In this document: in pieces, positions 54,387 through 57,146 of the stretch
Layout: every line of letters begins with the position of its first letter
Numbering within the stretch: the stretch's first letter is position 1
Source: Aliiroseovarius sediminilitoris
Lineage (GTDB): Bacteria; Pseudomonadota; Alphaproteobacteria; Rhodobacterales; Rhodobacteraceae
Assembly: GCF_900109955.1 (NCBI RefSeq)
Contig: NZ_FOJB01000001.1
Coordinates: 1,302,001 to 1,366,000, forward strand
Direction: 5' to 3'
Length of the DNA: 64,000 bases
Translations under genes and position numbers: made by a program
The notes under the pieces: generated by a model
Told to the model about the DNA's origin: nothing
The model's database searches: none
The model's input: the letters and a program-made list of their open reading frames with translations, nothing else

Positions 54387-54430
54387 AAAAAAAAACGGTG
54401 ACGCCCGGGAGGAGGTGGGCGCCACCGTTT
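54387..54430 (-). terminator. Last hairpin of the sRNA array, also an intrinsic terminator
   Basis: A stem of 13 pairs and one mismatch (54393-54406 with 54417-54430) has a CCUCCUCCC loop on the minus strand and is followed by nine T residues (54387-54395 as A on the plus strand). The final sRNA hairpin therefore doubles as the transcript end. Confidence 0.85.
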
Positions 54431-54471
54431 CTATGTGAAGCGGGGCTCTGGGAGGAGGTAGAGACCCGACG
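54387..54471 (-). ncRNA. CcsR/cuckoo-like sRNA 4 (two CCUCCUCCC hairpins)
   Basis: Hairpin 7 pairs 54441-54449 with 54460-54468 (one mismatch). Hairpin 8 is 54393-54430. Both show ACCTCCTCCC in the loop on the minus strand. Ends are estimates from the hairpins. The pairing of hairpins into four RNAs follows the Rhodobacter CcsR precedent and is inference. Confidence 0.7.
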
Positions 54472-54479
54472 TCATGTGG

Positions 54480-54550
54480 TTCAGGGTCTGGGAGGAGGTA
54501 GACCCGTCACCGTATCGGCTTAACCCCGGGAGGAGGTGGGGCAAACCGGA
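54480..54550 (-). ncRNA. CcsR/cuckoo-like sRNA 3 (two CCUCCUCCC hairpins)
   Basis: Hairpin 5 pairs CCCC (54524-54527) with GGGG (54538-54541), with weaker outer pairs to 54517/54547. Hairpin 6 pairs GGGTCT (54484-54489) with AGACCC (54500-54505). Both loops are ACCTCCTCCC on the minus strand. Ends are estimates. Confidence 0.68.
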
Positions 54551-54557
54551 TCTTGGG

Positions 54558-54634
54558 GGTGCGGTGGTGCCAGGGAGGAGGACGGCGCCACCGCGACCCG
54601 CGGACCTTCAAGGGAGGAGGAAGAAGGTCCGAAA
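54558..54634 (-). ncRNA. CcsR/cuckoo-like sRNA 2 (two CCUCCUCCC hairpins)
   Basis: Hairpin 3 pairs GGACCTTC (54602-54609) with GAAGGTCC (54623-54630), loop TTCCTCCTCCCTT on the minus strand. Hairpin 4 pairs 54561-54571 with 54584-54594 (11 positions, one mismatch). The six-base gap between them (54595-54600) makes them one compact unit. Ends are estimates. Confidence 0.72.
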
Positions 54635-54645
54635 CTTTTTTGATT

Positions 54646-54722
54646 GTGCGGCGGAACCGGGGAGGAGGTCGGTCCCGCCGCCAATCGAAGCCACTACCTG
54701 GGAGGAGGTAGGCGGTGGCCAG
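54646..54722 (-). ncRNA. CcsR/cuckoo-like sRNA 1 (two CCUCCUCCC hairpins)
   Basis: Hairpin 1 pairs 54690-54699 with 54710-54719 (two inner mismatches). Hairpin 2 pairs 54649-54659 with 54670-54680 (one mismatch). Both loops read ACCTCCTCCC on the minus strand. It starts only a few bases after the DUF1127 stop, so it must be cut out of that mRNA or share its transcript. Confidence 0.72.
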
Positions 54723-54727
54723 GAAAC

Positions 54728-54943
54728 CTATTGGTCGTTAACCGCCATGCGGGCCAGGAAGCGGATCGACGCACGGCTAATGCCCAGGTCGTTCAGTTCG
54801 CGGTCGCTCAGAGCGTTCAGTTCGCGCACAGTTTCACGATATTGGGCGCGCTGATGCATTTGCTCTTTCCAAACGGCGATCCGGGCTGCCAGACGATCAG
54901 CGATGCTGACAGGGGCAGAAAGAATTTCAGTTGCGTATGTCAT
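54728..54943 (-). CDS. DUF1127 small protein (CcaF1-like)
   Basis: A 71-residue protein. The N-terminal half is amphipathic (VSIADRLAARIAVWKEQMHQ) and the C-terminal DUF1127 motif is RETVRELNALSDRELNDLG then ISRASIRFLAR. In Rhodobacter sphaeroides such a gene (RSP_6037, CcaF1, an RNA-binding protein) lies directly upstream of the CcsR1-4 sRNAs and shares their stress-induced transcript; the same order is seen here. ATG at 54943 is chosen; an in-frame GTG at 54955 with GGAAAAG upstream is equally possible. Confidence 0.9.
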   Translation of the reverse strand: MTYATEILSAPVSIADRLAARIAVWKEQMHQRAQYRETVRELNALSDRELNDLGISRASIRFLARMAVNDQ

Positions 54944-54955
54944 ATTCTCACTCAC

Positions 54956-55408
54956 TTACATCTTTTCCGCAGAACCCTGCGGTGCGGGGCGGCAATGCCG
55001 CTGTTGTCTCTGTTGGCGCTCACATTGTCGCCTTGACCCCAAGATGGGCACAATGCTGCAGATGCACAATACCCCGCGTTCGCAAACCCGATATGCGGCG
55101 AGTGCATACATAAAAATGACATAATATTAATCGGTTGCTGACATTTTGTGCGCTGACGCAGGGTAAATTGCTGCGGCGCAGAAGGCGGGGGTTGATGTTA
55201 ACTTAAGGTCAATTTGTGTGGTGCATATTTATTGCCCGATATGCTCAGATCCAAGGCTTGATGACTGCGGCAAGTATGACGACGCACCCAGTGCATGAGA
55301 CGACTCACCGCAGGTCTGCGGCCACGTGACCGCCCGCTTTCAGTAGGTATGCCCCTTGCACCTGCCCACAAAGCTGCCAAGTAATGTGCGAAGCTGAAGG
55401 AGGCACGA
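54956..55408. promoter_or_regulatory. Divergent control region of DUF1127-sRNA array and apbC
   Basis: About 450 bases without a gene. On the minus strand a possible heat-shock-sigma (RpoH-type) promoter is TTGTGC (55064-55069) and CCCATCT (55042-55048) with 15 bases between. That fits the RpoHI/RpoHII control known for the Rhodobacter CcsR locus, but the match is by eye. An AT-rich patch lies at 55108-55135. GAAGGAGGC at about 55397 is the apbC ribosome site. Confidence 0.45.
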
Positions 55409-56485: not shown

Positions 56486-56503
56486 GCGTTTTGACCTCTC
56501 GGG

Positions 56504-56580
56504 AACGGCCTGTGGGAAACCATGGGCCGTTATGATTCCGGCGCGCCGCGCGCTGCATGGGAAACCATGGGTAAGCGGCG
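56504..56580. repeat. Two GAAA-capped hairpins sharing TGGGAAACCATGGG
   Basis: First hairpin: AACGGCC (56504-56510) pairs with GGCCGTT (56525-56531), inner TGG/CCA, loop GAAA. Second: CGCCGC (56544-56549) pairs with GCGGCG (56575-56580), inner CATGG/CCATG, loop GAAA. The shared core GGGAAACCATGGG is a direct repeat 45 bases apart. It lies just after the apbC stop. The same core also gives TGGGN pairs with 10-base spacing, so it can be read as MraZ-box-like DNA as well. Confidence 0.5.
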
Positions 56581-56683
56581 AAAAACTGCCGAATCAACGC
56601 GGATCACCCCCCGACTTTATCACTCAGGCGTGGACCCGCAGTGGTTGGTTTGTCAGGGCAGCGCCATCATTTGAATGATTTTC

Positions 56684-56698
56684 CGGGAAATTGTGGGA
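56684..56698 (+). promoter_or_regulatory. MraZ-box-like pair CGGGA-N5-TGGGA
   Basis: CGGGA (56684-56688) and TGGGA (56694-56698) have the 10-base period of MraZ operators. With the pairs at 56513/56523 and 56558/56568 they form a spaced series of possible boxes upstream of mraZ. Weaker than the array at 56836-56880. Confidence 0.35.
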
Positions 56699-56835
56699 TT
56701 TTTTTATGCTGCGCATGCAGCACCAGATTTAGTGGTCTTATATCCGTTACATCACTAGGTGTCGCGCTAAATGCTCAAGAATACACGCTACATATTGTTT
56801 TTTGCACCTTCGGAAAACAACATCTGGCCCGTTCT

Positions 56836-56880
56836 TCCCATAAAAACCTGTTGCGTCCCACGATTTCCCAAGCTATCCCT
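56836..56880 (-). promoter_or_regulatory. mraZ operator: MraZ-box array overlapping a candidate dcw promoter
   Basis: TCCCA at 56856 and 56866 and TCCCT at 56876 are spaced exactly 10 bases apart, with one more TCCCA at 56836 in the same register. On the minus strand they read (A/T)GGGA with five-base spacers, the form known for E. coli MraZ operators (TGGGN direct repeats with five-base spacers). A plus-strand promoter candidate, TTGCGT (56851-56856) and TATCCC (56874-56879) with 17 bases between, lies within the array. Binding there would repress the mraZ leader. Confidence 0.65.
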
Positions 56881-56886
56881 AAATAC

Positions 56887-57090
56887 AAGATGAGGACGGG
56901 ACATAAGAGGCAGCAAGACCTCGTGACACTCCCAAGTCAGGTTTCATACAGGCACCCGCTTCATCGTAACGAAAGAGATCCGGCGCGATCGCGAGCAGAC
57001 ATCCCCCCAGGTGGCGCGCGCAGCTGGACACCCGGAAACGGGACAGGCGGCGGATTGGGCAGTGGCAGCAGCTCAATCCGCCGTTTCTAT
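56887..57090 (+). ncRNA. upsM: UpsM-like sRNA in the mraZ leader
   Basis: The mraZ start is some 260 bases from the candidate promoter, and a strong terminator (57048-57083) sits in between. A transcript from about 56887 to 57090 would be about 204 bases. In Rhodobacter sphaeroides the abundant sRNA UpsM (206 bases) is made in the same way, by termination in the 5' leader of the dcw cluster. A GAAA-loop hairpin CCCG/CGGG (57031-57042) precedes the terminator. The 5' end is an estimate. Confidence 0.65.
57048..57090 (+). terminator. Intrinsic terminator in the mraZ leader
   Basis: A perfect ten-base-pair stem CGGCGGATTG/CAATCCGCCG (57048-57057 with 57074-57083) is followed by TTTCTATT. It lies 57 bases before the mraZ start, so dcw expression depends on readthrough. 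Confidence 0.8.
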
Positions 57091-57146
57091 TCCAGCCCTA
57101 CATTTTCAGGGCGCAGCGATGCTGGGACAGTGAAGGAGCCGCGCAA

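Follow-up and report, generated by a model that had tools for sequence, protein, structure and literature searches.

A DUF1127 gene followed by an array of eight cuckoo-type hairpins in Aliiroseovarius sediminilitoris

The DUF1127 gene and its eight hairpins

The window, as we call the whole 64-kb stretch of Aliiroseovarius sediminilitoris DNA that was analyzed (64,000 nucleotides), contains on its minus strand a small DUF1127 gene (54943-54728) that is followed by eight hairpins (54720-54392) and a T-run. The preliminary description of this DNA had placed a DUF1127 gene before the array, and this assignment was borne out, as the gene product matched PF06568 with an E value of 7.7e-13. The end coordinate of 54955 given in that description implies a GTG start, and here we deviate from it: we take the ATG at 54943 as the start, which all 21 genus genomes have at the same position. 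The stop codon of the gene is separated from the first hairpin by 7 nt. The features of the gene and the array are listed below, together with the number of stem pairs that showed a both-side (compensatory) change in the genus alignment.

54728..54943, minus strand: DUF1127 gene, ccaF1-like, 71 aa and stop, ATG at 54943 (PF06568 match)
54689..54720, minus strand: hairpin 1, motif 54700-54708 (fold; both-side change in 7 of 10 pairs)
54642..54686, minus strand: hairpin 2 (17 bp), motif 54660-54668 (fold; both-side change in 3 of 17 pairs)
54601..54631, minus strand: hairpin 3, motif 54612-54620 (fold; both-side change in 6 of 9 pairs)
54557..54599, minus strand: hairpin 4 (15 bp), motif 54573-54581 (fold; both-side change in 8 of 15 pairs)
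54516..54548, minus strand: hairpin 5, motif 54528-54536 (fold; both-side change in 9 of 11 pairs)
54484..54505, minus strand: hairpin 6 (6 bp), motif 54490-54498 (fold; both-side change in 4 of 6 pairs)
54436..54474, minus strand: hairpin 7, motif 54450-54458 (fold; both-side change in 4 of 12 pairs)
54387..54431, minus strand: hairpin 8 (54392-54431, motif 54407-54415) and T-run (fold; both-side change in 5 of 15 pairs)
54391..54517, minus strand: hairpins 6-8, matched by the Rfam model ar14 (RF02344) with 62.8 bits (cut-off 58.8)

The motif CCUCCUCCC is present in the loops of all eight hairpins on the minus strand between 54392 and 54720. Its complement GGGAGGAGG is found at eight places in the 64-kb window, always on the plus strand between 54407 and 54708 (corresponding to CCTCCTCCC on the minus strand), whereas 100 dinucleotide shuffles of the window contained it 0.42 times on average and never more than twice. 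The whole genome (3.41 Mb) contains 18 copies of the nine-base motif, eight of them in the array. On folding the minus-strand RNA from 54742 to 54387, each of the eight motifs was found in the loop of its own hairpin, exactly as had been described from the sequence before, and none of 100 shuffles was as stable as this RNA (MFE -159.6 kcal/mol, z -9.85). The spacing between the motifs is nearly even (40, 48, 39, 45, 38, 40, and 43), and an A-rich linker (AAAAAAGTTT) precedes hairpin 3. Hairpin 8 and the minus-strand T-run together are an intrinsic terminator that itself bears the loop motif, confirming the terminator that had been noted at the end of the array.

To describe the conservation of the locus, we used the corresponding region from 21 Aliiroseovarius genomes. 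The DUF1127 gene with motifs downstream was present in 21 of 21 genomes, with a length of 71 codons in each case. The loop number within this genus is nearly constant: 16 of the 21 genomes have exactly eight perfect motifs, four loci (L092, L097, L106, and L107) reach eight when motifs altered at their first base, or in L106 ending in an N, are included, and L109 has seven when imperfect copies are counted. Altogether, 154 of 156 perfect motifs from the 21 genomes were located wholly in a local hairpin loop, compared with 22 of 156 when the flanks were shuffled.

The stems have diverged in a compensatory manner, as the preliminary description had proposed. In an alignment of 20 of the 21 genomes (L106 was left out because of the N in its last motif, and the rows L107-L109 are poorly aligned in places), 46 of 95 stem pairs showed both-side changes, and these were spread over all eight helices. 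Shuffles of the stem alignment had a mean of 28.2 both-side-changed pairs, and none of 500 reached 46. Relatedness alone may let sequences exceed such shuffles in the absence of any structure; slid structures, which preserve relatedness, gave 11-18 both-side-changed pairs. Paired cells amounted to 91.9%, compared with 34-48% in the slid controls, a percentage that is favored by the use of the MFE helices from the window's own fold as the covariation structure. RNAalifold recovered only some of the hairpins from the alignment. As G-U cells (146) outnumber A-C cells (35) when the array is read as minus-strand RNA, and as the T-run is at the minus-strand end, the functional RNA is placed on the minus strand.

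These data also bear on two other readings of the array. CsrB-type sponges present GGA in their loops, and plus-strand hairpins would present GGA in every loop, so that a functional plus-strand RNA with GGGAGGAGG loops could be a CsrB/RsmZ-like sponge for CsrA. However, the ratio of G-U to A-C cells and the position of the T-run both speak for the opposite strand, and a search for CsrA (PF02599) at an E value of 0.001 gave no match in the host genome, with 3 of 14 control genomes being positive, including E. coli and B. subtilis. Because of the absence of CsrA and the cell counts, we rejected the plus-strand sponge, which has hardly any probability left. The motifs could also be sites in the DNA or belong to a coding sequence, and several mechanical ORFs do overlap the array on either strand, but the stem covariation fits RNA, and the spacings between the motifs vary by 1-2 nt between species, which likewise fits RNA and not a reading frame. 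A coding array was rejected on these grounds, and we regard this reading in general as extremely improbable.

Family assignment and loop number among relatives

The locus is of a known kind, namely a DUF1127-cuckoo locus of the ccaF1-CcsR/CIN1 type. The relation to the ccaF1-CcsR1-4/cuckoo locus had been suggested in the preliminary description, and covariance-model searches supported it, with ar14 scoring above its cut-off and CcsR1 (RF02791) below. The CcsR1 model matched three hairpin pairs with 48.6 bits (hairpins 1+2), 41.7 bits (7+8), and 35.0 bits (3+4), all below the cut-off of 65.3 bits, and with E values of 1.2e-10, 1.3e-8, and 1.2e-6 in a search of 1,001 bases. Further matches below the respective cut-offs were a second ar14 match with 40.6 bits, Scr3202 with 38 bits (cut-off 52), and ar7 with 26.3 and 19.7 bits (cut-off 60). 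When the CcsR1 model was applied to 198 genomes of the family (one per genus), 163 matched at an E value of 0.001 and 9 passed the cut-off; among 14 control genomes, one (Thermus composti) matched and none was above the cut-off. Because so many family genomes match and so few pass, the sub-cut-off score of the window is typical of the family, and for the same reason we file the array under the locus type and not as a curated CcsR1 member.

The Cuckoo RNA family of Reinkensmeier and Giegerich (2015) reportedly has a stated size of two to four hairpins. We found no defining difference from this family; longer arrays are readable as runs of cuckoo units, and the CCUCCUCCC loops on variable stems beside DUF1127 genes are a shared property, according to passages of the published descriptions (PMC10253847, PMC10746234). 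The ccaF1-CcsR1-4 locus of Rhodobacter sphaeroides likewise has a 71-aa DUF1127 gene directly before CCUCCUCCC hairpins and an intrinsic terminator, the length of CcaF1 being given as 71 aa (PMC12501420, PMC10253847), and it has an RpoHI/RpoHII promoter (PMC10253847), the RpoH-like counterpart of which is putative in our case. It differs from the locus analyzed here with respect to the CcsR1 score, the best of which is 48.6 bits in the window, and the hairpin pairs of the window lack gaps of about 65 nt, such as are seen between the pairs of L143 (see below). Alpha-r14/NfeR1 of Sinorhizobium meliloti (RF02344) resembles the window in its three adjacent anti-Shine-Dalgarno (aSD) hairpins and in the LsrB box TGCA-N6-GCAT upstream. 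However, NfeR1 is described as a transcript of its own, 123 nt long and driven by a sigma-70 promoter (PMC10746234), whereas the triple in the window forms the 3' end of an array with eight hairpins.

The array had originally been regarded as a four-unit, eight-loop version of the Rhodobacter locus. The eight loops stand, but their number is no enlargement, because L143, a locus with four CcsR1 matches (104.1, 65.6, 65.3, and 64.3 bits) in the genome G131, which we suppose to be near R. sphaeroides, also has eight. There, the loops follow a DUF1127-like ORF in four pairs, with spacings of 39/65/38/66/38/64/37. What distinguishes the array of the window from L143 is thus the even spacing and not the loop number. 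Four units are not evident, because the spacing is nearly even and because CcsR1 takes the hairpins 1+2, 3+4, and 7+8, whereas ar14 takes the triple 6-8.

In the family, 143 of the 198 genomes have two motifs in tandem that are separated by 25-55 nt, compared with 29 genomes that match the reversed-pattern control, many of them with long arrays. At 41 DUF1127 loci outside the genus, 23 of which had been chosen for carrying the motif pair, the number of perfect downstream loops ranged from 0 to 26, with possible undercounts at L019, L021, and L131 due to short flanks. The distribution was as follows (perfect loops: loci): 0: 5, 2: 8, 3: 3, 4: 5, 5: 5, 6: 2, 7: 1, 8: 5, 10: 2, 12: 3, 14: 1, and 26: 1. 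The array with 26 loops (L118, genome G185:C1) lies behind a DUF1127 gene, has 24 of its 26 motifs in local loops, and contains a 140-bp tandem repeat with 6.5 copies; as these copies are 97% identical, a part of the array looks recently grown. From 156 loci found, 80 had been kept, of which 8 of the Aliiroseovarius type gave way to the genus set and 18 were used in the comparisons, and the remaining 54, mostly from Rhizobiales, were scanned for motifs only. In many rhizobial loci (among L023-L087), CCTCCTCCC motifs were found a few hundred bases before the DUF1127 gene and not behind it, and in several of them as two groups of three.

Some side aspects concern other regions of the window's genome. 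Outside the window, tblastn detected a second small DUF1127 locus of the same kind (L111, G000:C1:1056170-1056740), with a second ORF that resembles DUF1127 by eye; behind these lie GCTCCTCCC and CCTCCTCCC hairpins (-26.8 kcal/mol for the CCTCCTCCC hairpin), and TGCTGCAGTGCAGCA is present upstream. A third DUF1127-related match is at G000:C1:418416-418538. Within the window, about 660 nt (56486-57146) lie between an mrp/ApbC gene and mraZ, at the place where the dcw leader of R. sphaeroides is described to contain the sRNA UpsM (PMC5089854, PMC8625941).

The upstream control region

When the 330 nt preceding the gene were aligned for the 21 genus genomes, one conserved block became apparent. 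We assigned the following putative elements to the upstream region:

55092..55108, minus strand: upstream box 1, TATGC-N7-GCATA including TGCA-N6-GCAT, putative LysR/LsrB-type site (alignment, pattern search)
55053..55069, minus strand: upstream box 2, TTGTGCATCTGCAGCAT, second TGCA-N6-GCAT, overlapping the RpoH-like -35 (TTG), putative (alignment, pattern search)
55039..55048, minus strand: putative RpoH-like -10 region CCCATCTTGG, starting 15 nt after TTGTGC (read from the sequence; C/T-rich-AT block in the alignments)

The putative RpoH-like promoter was read from the sequence on the basis of a conserved TTG that is followed by CCCAT 18 nt later; CCCATCTT lies 15 nt downstream of TTGTGC, and box 2 overlaps the TTG. 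RpoH promoters of R. sphaeroides are described to have a conserved TTG at -35 and to resemble E. coli sigma-32 promoters (PMC3441632). In a set of 61 DUF1127 loci (21 from the genus, 18, and 22 others), TTGTGCANNNGCAGCA was found 56 times with up to 2 mismatches, and the TTGTGCA element was present in all of the 10 best CcsR1 loci. Four of the five loci without TTGTGCANNNGCAGCA also had no perfect downstream motif (L020, L021 with its 46-nt flank, L024, and L121), yet the fifth, L133, has two perfect motifs.

The pattern TATGC-N7-GCAT was found in 37 of the 61 loci, at a distance of 38 or 39 nt before the TTG in 36 of these 37. A looser box, ATGC-N6/7-GCA, occurred at the same place in 50 of 56 loci, compared with 0.17% of shuffled stretches; at L118, which is among the six misses, sequence was lacking there. 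The region 54944-55408 of the window holds two copies of TGCA-N6-GCAT, the sequence published as the LsrB site in the NfeR1 promoter of S. meliloti (PMC10746234). The twin-box pattern (55054-55106 in the window) was detected at the DUF1127-cuckoo locus in 14 of 21 genus genomes; the search gave 44 matches, these 14 and 30 elsewhere, and the reversed pattern had no match in the same search. We also considered the VtlR form of a LysR box (GCAT-N3-TG-N3-T) and rejected it, as it was absent from both strands of 54944-55408; it occurs in 4 of 21 genus upstream regions when either strand is counted. For abcR1 promoters, tandem T-N11-A motifs have been described (PMC8844928).

Judged from their sequences, the promoter-like elements would fit an induction by stress, and we infer a possible dual control by a LysR-type regulator and RpoH. 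Among the matches listed, no report on LsrB-type control of CcsR was found; the listed papers naming CcaF1 or CcsR1 do not mention LsrB, apart from one in which it occurs in the reference list only (PMC12501420).

Candidate targets and mode of action

We consider it highly probable that the locus is a CIN1-type operon that combines a DUF1127 protein with a 3' array of eight cuckoo hairpins, giving rise to stress-induced RNAs whose anti-SD loops block translation initiation at putative targets. The small CcaF1-like protein and the eight-hairpin array would be encoded on one minus-strand transcript, and stress would switch on the locus via the RpoH-like promoter, probably together with an activator of the LysR type. 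The array would then be cut into short stable RNAs by RNase E, with the DUF1127 protein as a modulator. Each loop would present CCUCCUCCC as a mimic of the 16S anti-Shine-Dalgarno tail and could pair with G-rich ribosome-binding sites of target mRNAs, thereby blocking translation, and the copies would add up in dose. The presumed resemblance of the loop motif to the 16S anti-SD tail agrees with the literature's own term 'anti-Shine-Dalgarno'; a pattern search for the 16S rRNA tail in the window's genome found nothing.

Several of these steps have counterparts in published passages on related systems. RNase E cuts CcsR1-4 from the ccaF1 co-transcript, and flhR mRNA is a target (PMC8307010, PMC7866481), with CcsR levels being shaped by RNase E and PNPase (PMC7866481). 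The loops of NfeR1 are described as anti-Shine-Dalgarno motifs, three of which are used redundantly to silence mRNAs (PMC10746234, PMC3927594), and ntrB is silenced by their pairing at its start region, an effect that is lost when all three loops are mutated (PMC10746234). The preliminary description had proposed that the loops titrate Shine-Dalgarno-like sequences or proteins. On the basis of the published NfeR1 mechanism, we recast the first part of this proposal as an antisense masking of target start regions (PMC10746234); the second part is weighed below.

In the 21 genus genomes, GGGAGGAGG was found 3-10 nt before an ATG in 36 cases, compared with 9 cases for the reversed pattern, with the caveats that strong Shine-Dalgarno sequences are G-rich anyway and that 3 of the 36 sites are antisense to the array. 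The recurrent candidate was the gene for the small subunit of a sodium/substrate symporter (TIGR03647), the start of which has GGGAGGAGG in 10 of the 18 genus genomes that contain the gene and GGGAGGTGG in the other 8, including the window's own genome, which thus has one mismatch before the symporter ATG. Outside the genus (29 loci of 87 genomes with the gene), 1 perfect site and 3 sites with one mismatch were found, even though the best of up to three starts was taken, and G040, the genome with the sole perfect site, has no array. The symporter was therefore rejected as a family-wide target, and it may be regarded as a weak candidate target. The window's genome has ten motif sites outside the array; at nine of them, there is an overlap with a mechanical ORF on the would-be target strand, which says little. 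The motif site L249, found also in G015, is located 5 nt before the ATG of a frame that resembles an IclR regulator by eye, the start of this frame being uncertain because the frame is open further upstream.

As the mRNA targets are putative, the array might instead mainly titrate a protein, such as Hfq, the DUF1127 protein, or another RNA binder, with the loops serving as protein sites. Identical repeated loops on divergent stems would also suit this function, CcaF1 is described to bind RNA, and CcsR1-4 were reported to be Hfq-dependent (PMC12501420, PMC7866481). A point against the operon reading given above is that DUF1127 proteins need not act on RNA: Salmonella YjiS is presented as a case without RNA binding, and CcaF1 complements an Agrobacterium phosphate defect that works via protein contacts (PMC12501420). 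The anti-SD-like character of the conserved loop speaks against protein titration, as does the relative NfeR1, which is described as Hfq-independent and which lost reporter silencing when its three motifs were mutated (PMC10746234). We therefore regard a mainly protein-titrating array as unlikely and prefer the masking of translation starts.

This preferred reading can be extended to a doubly gated dosage device, which we put forward tentatively, as a possibility somewhat short of an even chance. A redox LysR regulator of the LsrB/VtlR type would act on two TGCA-N6-GCAT-type boxes, the second of which overlaps the RpoH-like -35, and evolution would have adjusted the strength of the output through the number of anti-SD loops (0 to 26 perfect loops at the 41 loci). 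The genus would have settled on a compact version of about eight loops that may repress carbon-uptake genes, such as that of the sodium/substrate symporter. In the literature passages, we did not meet paired boxes of the LysR type at a DUF1127-CcsR locus, nor the even spacing or this span of loop numbers.

Taken together, the studied stress-sRNA locus of Rhodobacter is extended to Aliiroseovarius, where covariation supports it strongly, and arrays of cuckoo loops occur widely and differ in the number of their loops. Should the paired boxes of the LysR type be real, they would join a Rhizobiales half (LsrB/VtlR, AbcR, and NfeR1) with a Rhodobacter half (RpoH and CcsR), and the differing loop numbers offer a naturally graded set in which to ask whether the dosage of anti-SD sRNAs tunes translation.
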